From assembly GCA_030528355.1 (NCBI GenBank), contig JAUMZA010000002.1, forward strand, positions 43,070 through 107,069: 64,000 nt of DNA. The letters run 5' to 3'. Below the pieces are notes generated by a model. The model was not told where the DNA came from. It did no database searches and was given only the letters and a program-made list of their open reading frames with translations. Below, one piece after another: positions 16,076-23,538 of the stretch. The position numbers and the translations under genes were made by a program. Positions within the stretch are counted from its first letter, which is position 1, and each line of letters opens with the position of its first letter. The stretch comes from Candidatus Saccharimonadota bacterium (GTDB lineage: Bacteria; Patescibacteriota; Saccharimonadia; Saccharimonadales; Saccharimonadaceae).

Positions 16076-17320
16076 CTAAATACGTTCACGACCCTGCATG
16101 TACGGGCGTAGTACTGCTGGCACAGTAAGCGTACCATCTTCGTTTTGGAAATTCTCTAGGATAACGACCAACGAACGAGCTAGGCTCACCGCCGTCCCGT
16201 TTAATGTATGCAACACCTCTACTTCACCACTGTCACGGCGAACCCGAATGTTCAAGTTGCGCGCCTGAAAATCAGTACAGTTACTACAGCTGGTGAGCTC
16301 ACGATAGGTTTCATCCACTGGCGACCAGTACTCAATATCGTATTTTTTAGCCGCTGGTGCACCCAAATCACCCGCCGCAATATTCACTACATGGTACGGA
16401 ATGCCGATTGCCTGCCACAGTTCTTCTTCAAGTGCCAAAATCTTTTCGTGCATATCACGTGATTGCTCCGGCGTACAAAATACATACATCTCAAGCTTAT
16501 TAAACTGATGCACCCGGAACAACCCACGAGTATGCTTGCCATACGTCCCCGCCTCTTTGCGGTAGCATGGGCTATAACCCACATAGCACAGCGGCAACTT
16601 AGCCTCATCGATAATCTCATCAGCATGATAGCCCGTCAGCGGCATTTCAGCGGTGCCAATCAAGGTTAAATCTTCACCTTCCACAAAATATTGATCGTTA
16701 CTCTTCACCCCTTTTGGTGCAAAACCCGCCCCAGCCGAGGTGCGAGAATTCACCATATTTGGCACGGTCATATACGTAAAGCCTTTTTCTAGCAGATACT
16801 GCAACGCAAACTGAGTAATGGCATTTTCGAGCAACGCCAAATCACCTTTTAGATAGTAAAATTTAGTGCCAGCCACCTTCGCACCACGCTCAAAATCAAC
16901 CCAATCACGCTTAGTGGCAAATTCAAGATGATCAACCGCACCAGTGGCTTGTTCGCCCCAACGCTTCACTTCTACACTATCTTCTTCACCGCCCAGCGGT
17001 ACATCATCAAACGCAGGATTTGGCACAGCTTGCATAGCCACTAGGTAATCGGCTTCAACTTGCTTAAGCTGCCCCTCTTGTGTAGCCAGTTCTTGCTTTA
17101 CTTGCTTGCCTTTTTCAATCAAGGCCGGATCGGGCTTGCCGCCCTTCATCTGCGTGGCAATCTCGTTGCGAGTCTGACGCAACTCATCAACCTGCTGCTG
17201 CAAGCTGCGGCGAGTATCATCTAGCTGCAAAAGTTCAGAGATAGATACCTCATACCCCTTTTGTGCCGCCGCCTCTTGCACACGAGCAGCATTCTCCCTA
17301 ATAAAACGAATATCTAACAT
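16076..17320 (-). CDS. serS: Seryl-tRNA synthetase
   Basis: 414 residues. N-terminal helical hairpin arm (about residues 25-105) that grips the long variable arm of tRNA-Ser, then the class II catalytic core. Motif 2 reads CYRKEAGTYGKHTRGLFRVHQF and motif 3 NGTAVSLARSLVVILE. It charges tRNA-Ser, and usually tRNA-Sec in other organisms, with serine. The ATG is 6 nt behind TACAAT, so the message is probably leaderless. Confidence 0.97.
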   Translation of the reverse strand: MLDIRFIRENAARVQEAAAQKGYEVSISELLQLDDTRRSLQQQVDELRQTRNEIATQMKGGKPDPALIEKGKQVKQELATQEGQLKQVEADYLVAMQAVPNPAFDDVPLGGEEDSVEVKRWGEQATGAVDHLEFATKRDWVDFERGAKVAGTKFYYLKGDLALLENAITQFALQYLLEKGFTYMTVPNMVNSRTSAGAGFAPKGVKSNDQYFVEGEDLTLIGTAEMPLTGYHADEIIDEAKLPLCYVGYSPCYRKEAGTYGKHTRGLFRVHQFNKLEMYVFCTPEQSRDMHEKILALEEELWQAIGIPYHVVNIAAGDLGAPAAKKYDIEYWSPVDETYRELTSCSNCTDFQARNLNIRVRRDSGEVEVLHTLNGTAVSLARSLVVILENFQNEDGTLTVPAVLRPYMQGRERI

Positions 17321-17326
17321 AATTTT

Positions 17327-17332
17327 ATTGTA
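17327..17332 (-). promoter_or_regulatory. -10 box TACAAT of serS
   Basis: TACAAT ends 6 nt before the ATG at 17320. A TTGATT -35 lies 16 nt upstream. Confidence 0.55.
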
Positions 17333-17388
17333 GCACTTTGCCAGTAGTAATCAAATGAGCATTTGCTACACTTCAAAGAGTGTAAATA

Positions 17389-17417
17389 TAGACTTTTATG
17401 TTGTTATATGATAAAAC
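17389..17417 (+). promoter_or_regulatory. Promoter of cassette 1
   Basis: TAGACT, 17-nt spacer, TAAAAC. Same position relative to the leader hairpin as in the other four cassettes. The spacer matches that of the promoter at 56894-56922 in 14 of 17 positions. Confidence 0.7.
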
Positions 17418-17425
17418 TAGTATCA

Positions 17426-17451
17426 ACACCTGTTCAACCCCGAACAGTTGT
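17426..17451 (+). promoter_or_regulatory. Cassette 1 leader hairpin with AACCCC loop
   Basis: CTGTTC and GAACAG pair around a six-base AACCCC loop, with ACA/TGT below a single mismatch. It begins within about 3 nt of the expected mRNA 5' end and is one member of a covarying set of five. Confidence 0.75.
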
Positions 17452-17475
17452 CGCACCTAGGAAAAGGAGACTGCC

Positions 17476-17982
17476 ATGGGATTGTTTTCTTATAAAGGAG
17501 ACTATACCTACGAAGGGAGATTTCCCTGCCCCCTGTCATCGATAACAAAGCACTCAAAGCCCACCGAACCGATTGACCTTGTTGAGTACTGCCATCGGAA
17601 ACTCGGCCTTGTGATAACAGTAAAAGTCACCGAGCAAAAGGAGGCCGGCTTTGTGATTGTGCCCTACGAGGTACCGAATCAATCAACACCAAGGACCGTC
17701 CTTGCCCGTGTGTACCGGGTAGATCCAGGCATCGCAAGCGTGACACCTTTCGTACGATTCGCTAAATTCGAGAAGTGGCATCGGCAACACGCATCCACGA
17801 TACGCTTAAAGCGATATGTCACGATCGGCAAACCTGTTAAACCAACCCTTGACATTGGCCACCTTCCTCGTGATGTACGTAACACCAGAAGAGCTCTCGC
17901 CGCAAGACCAGTACAAACGGCAAGCAGCTTTAGCGTACCTCAATGGTATCTCGCAACCCTTCTCTCTGGCTACACCCCCTAG
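17476..17982 (+). CDS. Cassette 1: small soluble protein of unknown function
   Basis: 168 residues, no signal peptide or membrane segment, so probably cytoplasmic. I do not recognise a domain. It is clearly homologous to the products at 18149 and 18861. Shared landmarks are an N-terminal FP-P-SS, IDL-E-C, FVIVPY, TVLARVYR, a TI-LKRY strand, and a C-terminal VP-YL-LL-YT ending. AAGGAG lies 6 nt before the ATG. The stop TAG is embedded in CCTAGG, the same hexamer found in the leader at 17456-17461. It is less like copies 2 and 3 than they are like each other. All neighbours outside the array run on the other strand. Confidence 0.85.
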   Translation: MGLFSYKGDYTYEGRFPCPLSSITKHSKPTEPIDLVEYCHRKLGLVITVKVTEQKEAGFVIVPYEVPNQSTPRTVLARVYRVDPGIASVTPFVRFAKFEKWHRQHASTIRLKRYVTIGKPVKPTLDIGHLPRDVRNTRRALAARPVQTASSFSVPQWYLATLLSGYTP

Positions 17983-17998
17983 GCACCCGCCTACCAAC

Positions 17999-18062
17999 AC
18001 AGCCTGCCAATCCGAGCCTTCCGCTCTTGGCATACCTGCGATTGGTAGGCTGTTTTATTTTT
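17999..18062 (+). terminator. Cassette 1 long terminator
   Basis: A 14-bp stem, ACAGCCTGCCAATC with GATTGGTAGGCTGT (one G-U), encloses an inner GAGC-CTTCC-GCTC hairpin and is followed by TTTTATTTTTT that runs into the -35 of cassette 2. An alternative fold pairs CCTACCAA (17990-17997) with TTGGTAGG. Confidence 0.85.
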
Positions 18063-18090
18063 TGACTTTTTTATCAATACGTGATATAAA
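18062..18090 (+). promoter_or_regulatory. Promoter of cassette 2
   Basis: TTGACT, 17-nt spacer, TATAAA. The -35 is fused to the T-tract of the preceding terminator. Confidence 0.85.
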
Positions 18091-18098
18091 TAATATCA

Positions 18099-18124
18099 AC
18101 AACTGCTCAATCCCGAACAGTTGT
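18099..18124 (+). promoter_or_regulatory. Cassette 2 leader hairpin with AATCCC loop
   Basis: ACAACTG pairs with CAGTTGT; above one C-A mismatch TC/GA closes the six-base loop AATCCC. Confidence 0.75.
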
Positions 18125-18148
18125 CGTACCTAGGAAAAGGAGATTATC

Positions 18149-18658
18149 ATGGGGACATTCACCCGTGAAGTAAAGTATACCCACGACGGAAGATTTCCGC
18201 TCCCGTTTTCATCCATATGGCGGTACCTGCGCCGATCCACTGATACAATCGATCTTGTCGAGCTCTGTTGTTGCGCTCTAGGGGTCGTGGCAGTAACAAG
18301 AGTCGCTGAGCATGAAGAGGCTTGCTTTGTGATTGTGCCCTACAAGGTACTACATCGGCCAACTCCCAACACTGTCCTTGCCCGTGTGTATCGTGCCGAG
18401 CCAACCCTTGCAAGCGTACTAGCCTTGTCAAGCTTTAAGGATTTTAGTGCACTGCATACACAGCACGCCACAACAATACAACTCAAGCGATATATCAAGT
18501 TTGATAAGCCTATTGAATCAGCCTTTGGTGCCGGCCAACTTTCTCGTACGGCACGCAACACAAAAAAGGCGCTTGCCACAGGGTATGTATGCACAGCGGG
18601 TAGATTTAGCGTACCGCAAGACTACCTAGATAGCCTTCTCTCTGATCATACCTCCTAG
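18149..18658 (+). CDS. Cassette 2: paralogue of cassette 1 protein, unknown function
   Basis: 169 residues, soluble, no recognised domain. The body matches cassettes 1 and 3 in the core FVIVPYKV, TVLARVYRAEP, HATTIQLKRYIKFDKP and the FSVPQDYLDSLL ending. The N-terminal quarter is variable and holds a cysteine run (ELCCCALG). AAGGAG lies 6 nt before ATG. Leader and trailer are almost identical to those of cassette 3, and CCTAGG again flanks the ORF on both sides (18129-18134 and 18654-18659, the latter containing the stop). Conserved flanks with more divergent coding sequence suggest duplication followed by divergence or exchange of ORFs. Confidence 0.85.
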   Translation: MGTFTREVKYTHDGRFPLPFSSIWRYLRRSTDTIDLVELCCCALGVVAVTRVAEHEEACFVIVPYKVLHRPTPNTVLARVYRAEPTLASVLALSSFKDFSALHTQHATTIQLKRYIKFDKPIESAFGAGQLSRTARNTKKALATGYVCTAGRFSVPQDYLDSLLSDHTS

Positions 18659-18674
18659 GCACCCGCCTACCAAC

Positions 18675-18737
18675 ACAGTCTACCAATCCGAGCCTCCCGC
18701 TCTTGGTATGTCTGCGATTGGTAGGCTGTTTTATTTT
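18675..18737 (+). terminator. Cassette 2 long terminator
   Basis: ACAGTCTACCAATC pairs with GATTGGTAGGCTGT, followed by TTTTATTTT. Relative to cassette 1 the inner TGCCAA/TTGGCA pairing has changed to TACCAA/TTGGTA, a compensatory change. Confidence 0.85.
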
Positions 18738-18774
18738 GGGTCGCAAATTGTATTAATTTCAAGATTGTAAGGTA

Positions 18775-18802
18775 TTGACTTTTTGTAAATTTGTACTATA
18801 AA
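18775..18802 (+). promoter_or_regulatory. Promoter of cassette 3
   Basis: TTGACT, 16-nt spacer, TATAAA. Confidence 0.8.
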
Positions 18803-18810
18803 TAGTAATA

Positions 18811-18836
18811 ACAACTGCTCAATCCCGAACAGTTGT
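18811..18836 (+). promoter_or_regulatory. Cassette 3 leader hairpin with AATCCC loop
   Basis: Same stem and loop sequence as cassette 2, nine nucleotides behind the -10. Confidence 0.75.
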
Positions 18837-18860
18837 CGTACCTAGGAGAAGGAGATTATC

Positions 18861-19367
18861 ATGGGAGTATTCACCTATACGGTAGATTACACCTGCGAAG
18901 GAAGCTTCCCTTTACCCTTTTCATCCTTAGGGATGCATCCCCACTCTATTGATCCAATCGATCTTACCGAGCTCTGCGAAGAGGGTGTAGGACTTGTTAT
19001 AAGAACAAAAGCTGCCGAACGCAAGGAGGCTTGCTTTGTAGTAGTGCCTTACAAGGTGCAACAGCAGCTTATGTCAAAAACGGTCCTTGCCCGTGTGTAT
19101 CGTGCCGAGCCAAACATCGTAAGAATGATGCGTTTTTCGGAATTTGATAATTTCAGAAGATTCCACACGCAGCATGATGCAACAATACAACTCAAGCGAT
19201 ATATCAAGTTTGATGAACCTGTTGAAGCAACACGCAGTGCCGAGGATCACTCTGACACCGCACGAAGCACGGTAAAAGCACTTGCCACAGGGCATGTATC
19301 TAAAATAGGAGGATTTACTGTGCCGCAGGATTATCTAGAGGATCTCCTTGCTGGCTACACCCCCTAG
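18861..19367 (+). CDS. Cassette 3: paralogue of cassette 1 and 2 proteins, unknown function
   Basis: 168 residues, soluble, unrecognised. It shares with cassette 2 nearly the whole central block (EACFVVVPYKV, TVLARVYRAEPN, ATIQLKRYIKFDEP) and the KALATGHV and FTVPQDYLEDLLAGYTP ending, while residues about 20-50 and 120-135 differ. The leader (AAGGAG, 6-nt gap) and the trailer follow the array pattern. CCTAGG at 18841-18846 and 19363-19368 bounds the ORF. Cytoplasmic location is inferred from the lack of a signal peptide. Confidence 0.85.
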   Translation: MGVFTYTVDYTCEGSFPLPFSSLGMHPHSIDPIDLTELCEEGVGLVIRTKAAERKEACFVVVPYKVQQQLMSKTVLARVYRAEPNIVRMMRFSEFDNFRRFHTQHDATIQLKRYIKFDEPVEATRSAEDHSDTARSTVKALATGHVSKIGGFTVPQDYLEDLLAGYTP

Positions 19368-19383
19368 GCACCCGCCTACCAAC

Positions 19384-19445
19384 ACAGCCTGCCAGTCCGA
19401 GCCTTCCGCTCTTGGCATGCCTGCGATTGGTAGGCTGTTTTCTTT
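19384..19445 (+). terminator. Cassette 3 long terminator
   Basis: ACAGCCTGCCAGTC pairs with GATTGGTAGGCTGT (G-U pairs), followed by TTTTCTTTTT; inner GAGC/GCTC hairpin as in cassettes 1 and 2. Confidence 0.85.
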
Positions 19446-19484
19446 TTCAGCCACCGAGCCGGTTTACTGAATCATTGCCAGAAC

Positions 19485-19513
19485 TTGACTTTTTTATAAA
19501 TGTGTGCTATAAG
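19485..19513 (+). promoter_or_regulatory. Promoter of cassette 4
   Basis: TTGACT, 17-nt spacer starting TTTTTATA, TATAAG. Confidence 0.85.
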
Positions 19514-19521
19514 TAATAATA

Positions 19522-19547
19522 ACTTTTGTTCAATCCCGAACAGAAGT
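19522..19547 (+). promoter_or_regulatory. Cassette 4 leader hairpin with AATCCC loop
   Basis: ACTTTTGTTC pairs over 10 bp (one U-G) with GAACAGAAGT. Both sides of the lower stem differ from cassettes 2 and 3, yet pairing and loop are kept. Confidence 0.8.
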
Positions 19548-19571
19548 CGGTCCTATTGGAAGGAATTCATC

Positions 19572-19958
19572 ATGTCGGACAATACTCTGGCATACATTGG
19601 CTACGACGCTATCAACCTGCTCACTCTTGATCCCAAGAAAGACGCACTCTATGTCACCACCGATGGCAACGAAACGTTTATCATCGAACGTGCCGATAGC
19701 AAACCTGCCAACACGCAAGAAGAAGTTCGCATCAATCTGTTTAGAGACACCGCCAATACCAGCAAAGGCACTTTTTCAGCAACTGCTGAAAACCCAATCT
19801 TTTTACCAATACTTGTAGCTGTAGGAAAACATATGGCACTCCATATTACGTCTTACAACTCAAATCGCCTTTCACGCGGCATGGTTCTTACCACCAAAAC
19901 AGTACGCAGCATCACTGTTGTCCCTCTTGATATGGTACCCCCCATGACAGGCAACTAG
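19572..19958 (+). CDS. Cassette 4: small soluble protein, probably a distant member of the cassette family
   Basis: 128 residues from the ATG at 19572, chosen because it lies behind GGAAGGA and at the same distance from the hairpin as in the other cassettes; an upstream in-frame ATG would lie inside the promoter. No domain, signal peptide or membrane segment is recognised. Sequence identity to cassettes 1-3 is low, but the order of hydrophobic strands is similar (ETFIIERA, VRINLFRDT, GKHMALHITSYN, SITVVPLDMV). The trailer begins at the stop codon, as in the other cassettes. Confidence 0.8.
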   Translation: MSDNTLAYIGYDAINLLTLDPKKDALYVTTDGNETFIIERADSKPANTQEEVRINLFRDTANTSKGTFSATAENPIFLPILVAVGKHMALHITSYNSNRLSRGMVLTTKTVRSITVVPLDMVPPMTGN

Positions 19959-20030
19959 CCCACTGATTAAGCCCTCCGATTGAGCCTTGTGGCTCTCGTG
20001 CAGCATAGTTTAATCGGTGGGCTTAATTTT
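19957..20030 (+). terminator. Cassette 4 long terminator
   Basis: AGCCCACTGATTAA pairs with TTAATCGGTGGGCT (one U-G) around an inner GAGCC-TTGT-GGCTC hairpin. TTAATTTT follows. The layout matches cassettes 1-3 but the sequence is different. Confidence 0.8.
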
Positions 20031-20034
20031 ATAG

Positions 20035-20063
20035 TTGACTTTTTTATAGATATATGCTTAAAT
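20035..20063 (+). promoter_or_regulatory. Promoter of cassette 5
   Basis: TTGACT, 17-nt spacer starting TTTTTATA, TTAAAT. Confidence 0.75.
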
Positions 20064-20071
20064 ATAACTAC

Positions 20072-20095
20072 CTTTTGCTCAATCCCGGGCAAAAG
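20072..20095 (+). promoter_or_regulatory. Cassette 5 leader hairpin with AATCCC loop
   Basis: CTTTTGCTC pairs over 9 bp (one U-G) with GGGCAAAAG around AATCCC. Confidence 0.8.
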
Positions 20096-20119
20096 CAGCA
20101 CCTAGAAAAGGAGATTCCG

Positions 20120-20551
20120 ATGTCTAAAAGGCCATCACTCCCTAAGGCAATCACCGATCTACTGCAAGCAGAGTGGTACGTTGACCTCAAGCGGCTACTC
20201 GATGAGAAAGAAGCCCTGCTGCTACGAAACATCAGCGGATCCTTCTACCTAATCGTGCCACAAACCGCTAAGCCGAACCACCTTGCCCCGGTAGACTCAC
20301 TGATTGTGCATATCTACGAACTTGAAGATTGTGCACTCAAAGGCGCTCGAGCAGTCACCAAGAAATTCTTGCGTGGCAACCCAAAGCGTACCGTCGCCCT
20401 TATGGATAGAAGTGTCACGGTGAACAGTTCATTGGCCGCCAGCGTCCTGCAATCCGATTTGGGTTCAGCCCGGCACCAAGAACTCATCATAAACTACTCT
20501 CCTATACTAGCAATGCGTACCGTTTCTATGCCAGATGACCTAGAACGGTAG
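20120..20551 (+). CDS. Cassette 5: small soluble protein, probably a distant member of the cassette family
   Basis: 143 residues from the ATG at 20120, behind AAAAGGAG; a longer in-frame start at 20054 lies within the promoter and is rejected. No signal peptide. Alignable landmarks with cassettes 1-3 are FYLIVPQ (their FVIVPY), SLIVHIYELE (their VLARVYR-E), RTVALMDRSVTV (their TIRLKRYVTI) and a C-terminal TVSMPDDLE (their FSVPQ-YL). This supports common ancestry by eye only. Function is unknown. Confidence 0.8.
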   Translation: MSKRPSLPKAITDLLQAEWYVDLKRLLDEKEALLLRNISGSFYLIVPQTAKPNHLAPVDSLIVHIYELEDCALKGARAVTKKFLRGNPKRTVALMDRSVTVNSSLAASVLQSDLGSARHQELIINYSPILAMRTVSMPDDLER

Positions 20552-20562
20552 CCCATCAATCC

Positions 20563-20629
20563 ACAGCCCACCCCAATTATGCATATTGCTTTTTGGTACC
20601 ACGCTTGGTTGGTGGGCTGTTTTCTTTTC
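20563..20629 (+). terminator. Cassette 5 terminator
   Basis: ACAGCCCACC pairs with GGTGGGCTGT, followed by TTTTCTTTT. It ends about 10 nt before the 3' end of the opposing ABC permease gene. Confidence 0.8.
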
Positions 20630-20638
20630 TGTAAGTAG

Positions 20639-22003
20639 CTATTCGGTTCGCAACGCCTCGATTGGATCAAGCTTGGCCGCCTTGCGACTTGGCAAAAAGC
20701 CCGCCACAATCGCCACAAGCATCAACACCAACACCACAGCAGCTGCGGAGATTGGCTGAAAAATCAGTAGTGAATGCTCGCCAAAGTTCAAACTTTTTGA
20801 AATCCACGGATTTGCTGCCGTCGCGGCCGCCCACGCACCCAACACGCCAATCGCACCACCAATAAAGCCAATCCAAGCAGCTTCGTAGCGGAACATACGG
20901 CCAATGTCGCGCCTTGAAGCGCCTAGTGCTTTCATCAAGCCAATCTGCTGCGTGCGCTCAAGCACCGAAATGTACATGGTGTTAACGATACCAAAAATGC
21001 TCACAATCAGCGCCAGCAAACCAAAGCCAAGCACGATATTCTGCAGCACATTTACAAAGGTAAATAGCATACCTTGCACATCTTTCGAGGTAAGCGCCGC
21101 CAAATTCAGTTCCTTTTTGAGCGCTTCTTTGACATCTTCTGGATTTTTGCCATCCACCACTGTTGCCGTCACGCTGACATATTTTTGATGATGATCGGTG
21201 CCGATGGTCGAAAATTCAGCCAATTCTTTTGCCGCCGCCAAGCTAACGTAGGCATTTGGCGTATTAGTGGCTTGTTCTGGCGATTTTTTTGAAACCGCCA
21301 CGATTTTTAGATCTTTGTGCATCAGCTTACTGCTGGTTAGCTCACGCACACCTGCCTCGCCGCGCGTAGCGTAGACTTTGGCAATATCCGCCTCGCTGAC
21401 GTTTTGCGGCAACTGCTCGACCGTCATTTGCACCGTGGTGCCAATCAGTGATTCTGGCGATACTTTCAGCTCTTCGGCATATGCCGCCGGGACGATCATT
21501 TCGTTATCCGCCAACTGCACACCCTTATCCATCGCCTTGCCCGCCGCCGATTCAACCCGAATGCCACTATCACGCATCATCACCTCGCCGGTGTATTTTT
21601 TATCCGGCTTGGCGCTAAATGTAAAATATTTTGGCTGCAACTGATACAGCGGCGCCACATTTTTCAAGTCACTGCGCGCCTCGAGCTTCGCCAAATCATC
21701 TGGCGTCACCGCTTGATATTCGCGGCCGTAGTACGTCGCCTTATCTGGATTGTATTCTTTTAGCGCCGCCTGACTACCGCCGCCCACGCCAAATGTTTCT
21801 GTATTTTTTGCGATAATCAACCCCTGCGGATCAATGTTGCTACTGATAATGCGGTCAACATACTGGCGCGCACCCTCGCCCGCCATTAGGCTAGCCATAA
21901 TGGCAAAACCGCCCACGGCAATCGCCACGCTGGTTAGCAAGGTTCGCATTTTTGCGCGGCGCAAATTTCGCCCCGATCGTCGCACGATATCAAGCATTCT
22001 CAT
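20639..22003 (-). CDS. MacB-type ABC transporter permease
   Basis: 454 residues: N-terminal TM helix (LLTSVAIAVGGFAIMASLMAG), a periplasmic-type domain of about 250 residues, then three C-terminal helices of the FtsX fold (IVLGFGLLALIVSIFGIVNTMYI, GFIGGAIGVLGAWAAATAA, AAAVVLVLMLVAIVAGFLP). The coupling segment TQQIGLMKALGASRRDIGRMF is typical of MacB/LolC permeases. It overlaps its ATPase gene by 4 nt (ATGA). Such pairs extrude peptides or lipoproteins or transmit envelope signals; no substrate can be named. Its codons look richer in GC-ending forms than the cassette genes beside it. Confidence 0.9.
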   Translation of the reverse strand: MRMLDIVRRSGRNLRRAKMRTLLTSVAIAVGGFAIMASLMAGEGARQYVDRIISSNIDPQGLIIAKNTETFGVGGGSQAALKEYNPDKATYYGREYQAVTPDDLAKLEARSDLKNVAPLYQLQPKYFTFSAKPDKKYTGEVMMRDSGIRVESAAGKAMDKGVQLADNEMIVPAAYAEELKVSPESLIGTTVQMTVEQLPQNVSEADIAKVYATRGEAGVRELTSSKLMHKDLKIVAVSKKSPEQATNTPNAYVSLAAAKELAEFSTIGTDHHQKYVSVTATVVDGKNPEDVKEALKKELNLAALTSKDVQGMLFTFVNVLQNIVLGFGLLALIVSIFGIVNTMYISVLERTQQIGLMKALGASRRDIGRMFRYEAAWIGFIGGAIGVLGAWAAATAANPWISKSLNFGEHSLLIFQPISAAAVVLVLMLVAIVAGFLPSRKAAKLDPIEALRTE

Positions 22004-23334: not shown

Positions 23335-23538
23335 ATGGGATGGAATCTTTTTGCTGAAAACGAGGACGAGAAAGTTCTCGAGAAGCAGCGAGATGACGGC
23401 GGAACTGAGTATCCACACTTCTACAAGGATGAGTCTCTCTCACAAGAAGCCTCCGCCAGCAGGGAGAAGGGTCGGGATCATGACCATATCACTTTTTACC
23501 CTGATGGAAGTACGAAGTATGATTCGACTCAGCTCTAG
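23335..23538 (+). CDS. Small hydrophilic protein, unknown function
   Basis: 67 residues from the ATG at 23335, chosen because GAGGAG lies about 8 nt upstream and family-like sequence would not include the upstream leader. The product is very charged (AENEDEKVLEKQRDD) and ends in HITFYPDGSTKYDSTQL, which could be a short beta hairpin. No signal peptide, membrane helix or known domain. It has its own promoter and long leader and is transcribed opposite to most neighbours, like the cassettes at 17-20 kb, but shares no sequence with them. Confidence 0.65.
   Translation: MGWNLFAENEDEKVLEKQRDDGGTEYPHFYKDESLSQEASASREKGRDHDHITFYPDGSTKYDSTQL

Follow-up and report, generated by a model that had tools for sequence, protein, structure and literature searches.

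A species-restricted array of five small-gene cassettes joined by a common leader hairpin in a Saccharimonadaceae bacterium

Organization of the locus

The window, that is, the whole stretch of DNA analysed, comprises 64,000 nucleotides from a Candidatus Saccharimonadota bacterium of the family Saccharimonadaceae. At positions 17389–20630 it carries five plus-strand units between serS and an ABC exporter, and each of them, as read from the sequence, consists of a promoter, a hairpin at the 5' end, a Shine–Dalgarno (SD) site, one ORF and a long terminator (Table 1). The flanking genes lie on the minus strand, with serS ending at 17320 and the ABC permease starting at 20639. ORF calls and the sequence itself confirmed an initial annotation of five small plus-strand ORFs among minus-strand neighbours at this place.

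The same annotation had assigned every unit its own TTGACT-type promoter, leader hairpin, SD and long terminator. The leader hairpins were recovered in five of five units by folding and leader alignment, the SD sites lie where they had been placed in all five, and all five terminators form hairpins, with energies of −28 to −36 kcal/mol. The TTGACT-type promoter holds for cassettes 2–5; cassette 1 offers TAGACT and TAAAAC alone, so its promoter is degenerate. Since no signal peptide or transmembrane (TM) segment is evident by eye in the array proteins, they are probably cytosolic.

Table 1. Features of the five cassettes (window positions)
Cassette	Feature	Position	Strand	Basis
1	Promoter, degenerate, TAGACT-17-TAAAAC	17389..17417	+	Read from sequence; missed by near-consensus scan
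1	Leader hairpin	17427..17450	+	Folding and leader alignment
1	ORF, 168 aa	17476..17982	+	ORF call, paralogue comparison
1	Terminator, long branched hairpin	17999..18053	+	Folding
2	Promoter, TTGACT-17-TATAAA	18062..18090	+	Promoter scan
2	Leader hairpin	18100..18123	+	Folding and leader alignment
2	ORF, 169 aa	18149..18658	+	ORF call, paralogue comparison
2	Terminator	18675..18729	+	Folding
3	Promoter, TTGACT-16-TATAAA	18775..18802	+	Promoter scan
3	Leader hairpin	18812..18835	+	Folding and leader alignment
3	ORF, 168 aa	18861..19367	+	ORF call, paralogue comparison
3	Terminator	19384..19438	+	Folding
4	Promoter, TTGACT-17-TATAAG	19485..19513	+	Promoter scan
4	Leader hairpin	19523..19546	+	Folding and leader alignment
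4	ORF, 128 aa; kinship to 1–3 not demonstrable	19572..19958	+	ORF call, shuffles
4	Terminator, sequence unlike 1–3	19965..20028	+	Folding
5	Promoter, TTGACT-17-TTAAAT	20035..20063	+	−35 by scan, −10 read from sequence
5	Leader hairpin	20072..20095	+	Folding and leader alignment
5	ORF, 143 aa; similarity to 1–3 borderline	20120..20551	+	ORF call, shuffles, profile
5	Terminator	20563..20620	+	Folding

Coding sequences and untranslated ends

Cassettes 1–3 had been described as clear paralogues and prove to be so, with mutual protein identities of 48–56% and shuffle z values of 33–53. Identities at the three codon positions were 0.64/0.75/0.50, 0.70/0.68/0.43 and 0.72/0.77/0.55 for the three pairs, and dN/dS (NG86) was about 0.39, 0.24 and 0.39, which argues that these are protein-coding genes kept under purifying selection. 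Judged by these comparisons, the three genes are kept yet evolving quickly, and this combination would fit proteins that bind changing partners.

The 75 bases 3' of the stop codon are 91–96% identical among cassettes 1–3, whereas the coding sequences are only 60–68% identical; the genes have thus diverged faster than their ends. This can reflect either constraint or gene conversion, which three copies cannot separate. Over the 70 bases 5' of the start codon, cassettes 4 and 5 are 65–76% identical to cassettes 1–3, and their leader likeness could stem from plain common descent; their terminators are unlike those of cassettes 1–3 (55–59%). The proposal that the locus was built by repeated duplication thus stands for cassettes 1–3, where it covers coding sequence, leader and terminator, and extends across all five for the promoter–leader module only.

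The further claim that cassettes 4 and 5 belong to one protein family with cassettes 1–3 found no support at the sequence level. For cassette 4, 78–260 of 400 shuffles scored as well against cassettes 1–3, which is the level of noise; for cassette 5 the count was 10–37 of 400, a borderline value, and common descent of this protein with those of cassettes 1–3 is possible. Against none of the other cassettes could cassette 4 be told from shuffled sequence. Profile comparison (hhalign) of cassettes 4 and 5 with cassettes 1–3 gave E-values of 0.42 and 0.5 with probability near 0. AF2 models of cassettes 1 and 5 were poor (pLDDT 38.7 and 45.0). At this low pLDDT, both show a short helix, three strands and another helix in succession: H35–40, E43–51, E55–64, E76–82 and H95–104 in cassette 1, and H23–28, E31–36, E42–48, E60–68 and H73–86 in cassette 5. 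The common order of strands once claimed for cassettes 4 and 5 thus finds no more than a weak echo, in cassette 5. A dsRBD-like fold could be read into the H-E-E-E-H order, but this was set aside, as the models stand at pLDDT 39–45; Foldseek searches with both low-confidence models returned nothing at E below 0.05.

A leader hairpin common to all cassettes

The element that unites all five cassettes is the leader. The five leaders align over 69 bases with a mean column identity of 82%, and share a 9-bp stem closed by an AAYCCC loop. Across the five sequences, 93% of stem cells are paired, and shifting the partner by 1–3 columns in the alignment lowers pairing to 29–60%. Four stem pairs are changed on both sides, the loop is invariant except for one Y, and the covariation score was equalled by 4 of 500 shuffles. 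When the transcription start site is predicted from the −10 box, the hairpin falls within a few bases of the 5' end. An SD-proximal CCUA is constant among the leaders, as is the loop, while the stem varies on both sides; the leader may therefore be read by a trans-acting factor common to the units, and the constant loop in particular hints at such a reader. The 'individual control' originally ascribed to the units is borne out by a promoter for each, but with the same leader element in all five, shared control is the better description.

A covariance model of the leader retrieved the five cassettes from the genome at E-values of 1e-18 to 8e-14 and found no other copy there (next best, E 3.8); cmscan gave no Rfam match for positions 17300–20700 at E up to 5. 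A likeness of the loop to the tRNA T-arm (TTCAAYCC) was dropped, as cassettes 2, 3 and 5 have C in place of the first T, which itself belongs to the stem. A leader match in G082, a genome from outside the genus (26 bits, E 0.036 per genome, 121 genomes), is within chance; its local fold is not hairpin-like, yet it precedes a small ORF that is one of several small genes in a row.

Distribution in related genomes

The array proteins had no credible match in Pfam, PHROGs, NCBIfam, PADLOC or the PDB; the PDB profile matches to Rap1 (E 0.11) and a plant virus capsid protein (E 0.89) are chance. A profile of the three paralogues, run against 394 genomes of the family, matched its own genome only, apart from weak matches at E 0.001–0.009 that were taken as chance, and profile searches found no relatives of the array proteins in the 393 other genomes. 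Among the weak protein matches in relatives (E 0.001–0.07), those read (L005, L077, L078 and L080) lie inside or antisense to unrelated genes. No array relatives were detected in phages and plasmids by tblastn, nor in GTDB species genomes and IMG/VR by pattern scans, which reach close relatives only.

A survey of the serS/ABC exporter site in other Saccharibacteria, suggested by the initial annotation, showed that the array is no constant part of the site. The one congener examined has no array there, and its permease stops ~26 bases short of serS; where the flank upstream of serS was read in other relatives, the site is empty or holds other genes. This pattern implies either recent gain in the present species or loss in the others, of which recent gain is the simpler. 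The best reading is that the array is a young, species-restricted ORFan cluster, so far seen in one species.

Hairpin leaders on other species-only genes

A scan of 284 kb of genome stretches for near-consensus promoters that precede an SD and an ORF yielded 33 genes. By the criterion of an MFE of at most −8 and a z of at most −1.3 in the first 45 transcribed bases, 14 had a 5'-end hairpin and 19 had none. Among the hairpin genes, 13 of 14 had no Pfam family above cut-off (10 of 11 with the array left out), the sole exception being nusA. Only 6 of the 19 genes without a hairpin lacked a family, and this set includes rpsB, rpsP, infA, inorganic pyrophosphatase and RNase J. The association between hairpin and ORFan status (Fisher p 0.0009 with the array, 0.0024 without) is small and comes from a count in which some housekeeping genes were named by eye. 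It should be regarded as a lead, because the rule was set after the array had been seen and 15% of random 45-mers from the window also pass the hairpin criterion.

At L091 (G000:C6), positions 63–1569 of the minus strand, two adjacent ORFans of 206 and 170 aa are 45% identical over 76 residues, were found in none of 60 relatives and share a leader hairpin that contains AACCCAGTYRCCCCGRCTGGGG. This pair is a second small species-only array of the same design. With the design recurring on other species-only genes, the five-cassette array would seem to be the largest local example of something more general.

Two unlinked ORFans of 156 and 172 aa (L093 from 1582 and L089 from 2510, both plus) have leader stretches in common, namely TTGGCA..TGCCAYGTTCATTTACAT, and CCCTACCC near the SD. 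In the window itself, a 67-aa ORFan at 23335–23538 (plus) is preceded by the perfect hairpin GCGGAGAACAACCTTCTCCGC and an SD. A hairpin-leader gene on the minus strand of L091, from 9873, encodes a protein with two TM segments; past an in-frame TAA, its frame stays open for a further, helical-looking tail of ~150 codons. Beside trmD in the G082 genome (L068/L069), several small genes, none with a Pfam match, follow one another on the plus strand, and some of them have leader hairpins.

Proposed mechanism and alternative explanations

Collectively, the array is real, coding and species-restricted, and consists of three paralogues and two further genes joined to them by the leader, not by demonstrable protein kinship. 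In the model we propose, each unit would be transcribed into its own short monocistronic mRNA, starting at or a few bases from the 9-bp hairpin and ending in the long GC-rich terminator hairpin. The former would hinder attack at the 5' end and the latter attack at the 3' end, giving stable, well-expressed mRNAs for small cytosolic proteins. Transcription may be constant or under one shared signal, and a shared trans-acting factor might also read the leader. The proteins themselves would, at a guess, be fast-evolving intracellular interaction proteins engaged in conflict or partner binding. In E. coli and B. subtilis, a hairpin close to the 5' end is known to shield mRNAs against decay that depends on that end (PMC3997798). 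RNase J is encoded by the present genome, and by analogy the array mRNAs are probably stable. On balance, we lean towards this model as a whole, a young ORFan cluster with hairpin-capped stable mRNAs and fast-evolving intracellular proteins.

The reading of the initial annotation, that all five proteins form one family diverged past sequence recognition, is a serious contender, although we incline slightly against it. The order and spacing of AF2 elements in cassette 5 repeat those of cassette 1, cassette 5 outscores most shuffles against cassettes 1–3 (10–37 of 400 as high) and the leader type is identical throughout, but the models stand at pLDDT 39–45, hhalign gives E 0.4–0.5 and the similarity of cassette 4 is at noise level. 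Retention of the leader where the coding sequence is unrecognisable would also follow if unrelated ORFs had been placed under a promoter–leader module (terminator included), whose AAYCCC loop a protein or small RNA would read to form a regulon. The loop, constant though the stem varies on both sides, and the two unlinked ORFans that have stretches of another leader in common point the same way. Such capture is nevertheless unlikely, as the five sequences all come from one locus, and local duplication with fast coding divergence yields the same picture.

The array form, the small soluble proteins, the species restriction and the rapid turnover could further be reconciled with an orphan immunity or anti-phage array, akin to acquired interbacterial defence clusters; such immunity genes without partners are already known from gut bacteria (PMC12247911). 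We judge this quite improbable: none of the proteins matches PADLOC, Pfam or PHROGs, no toxin gene was noticed nearby and no mobile element was seen at the edges. The earlier comparison with effector, immunity or host-interaction gene sets found no support either, NCBIfam and the PDB also giving no match and no toxin or secretion gene being noticed among the neighbours. That the ORFs are spurious, lying in a repetitive intergenic stretch, would agree with their having no database homologue but is barely credible in the face of codon-position identities such as 0.64/0.75/0.50 and a dN/dS well below 1 for cassettes 1–3, and of the promoter, SD and terminator that go with every one of the ORFs.

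A bolder generalization is one that we consider a long shot: Saccharibacteria may mark a class of species-specific proteins at the RNA level, by a hairpin at the 5' terminus whose loop is specific to the family and is read by a common factor, the array being the most visible case. If so, the leader would define a regulon in which the proteins are replaced faster than the regulatory RNA. The species that carries the array is a tiny parasitic bacterium with a very small, host-dependent genome, which nevertheless keeps, under purifying selection, several genes that are confined to one species and bear elaborate expression signals. Should the leader truly mark such genes, it would offer a sequence handle on fast-evolving, possibly host-facing genes of Saccharibacteria, a set missed by homology searches.

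Comparison with known systems

Integron gene cassettes likewise form rows of single-ORF units that each end in an imperfect palindrome; the array differs in having a promoter in every unit, and no attC core sites (RYYYAAC/GTTRRRY) were noticed by eye at its terminators. The orphan immunity genes of gut bacteria (PMC12247911) similarly encode small, fast-changing, soluble proteins without partners, whereas in the array neither an immunity family nor a toxin or a mobile context could be recognised. In the 5' stabilising stem-loops of ompA, papA and aprE (PMC3997798), the hairpin also lies at or near the 5' end, which in the array is a predicted one, and upstream of the SD; the array differs in that its loop is constant over five genes, a constancy that stabilisation alone would not call for. 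Tandem lineage-specific ORFan clusters resemble the array in their local duplication, in that no homologues are found in other species and in that relatives lack them at the syntenic site. From these the array is set apart by copies that are each monocistronic with their own promoter, and by a leader hairpin that is better conserved than the proteins it precedes.
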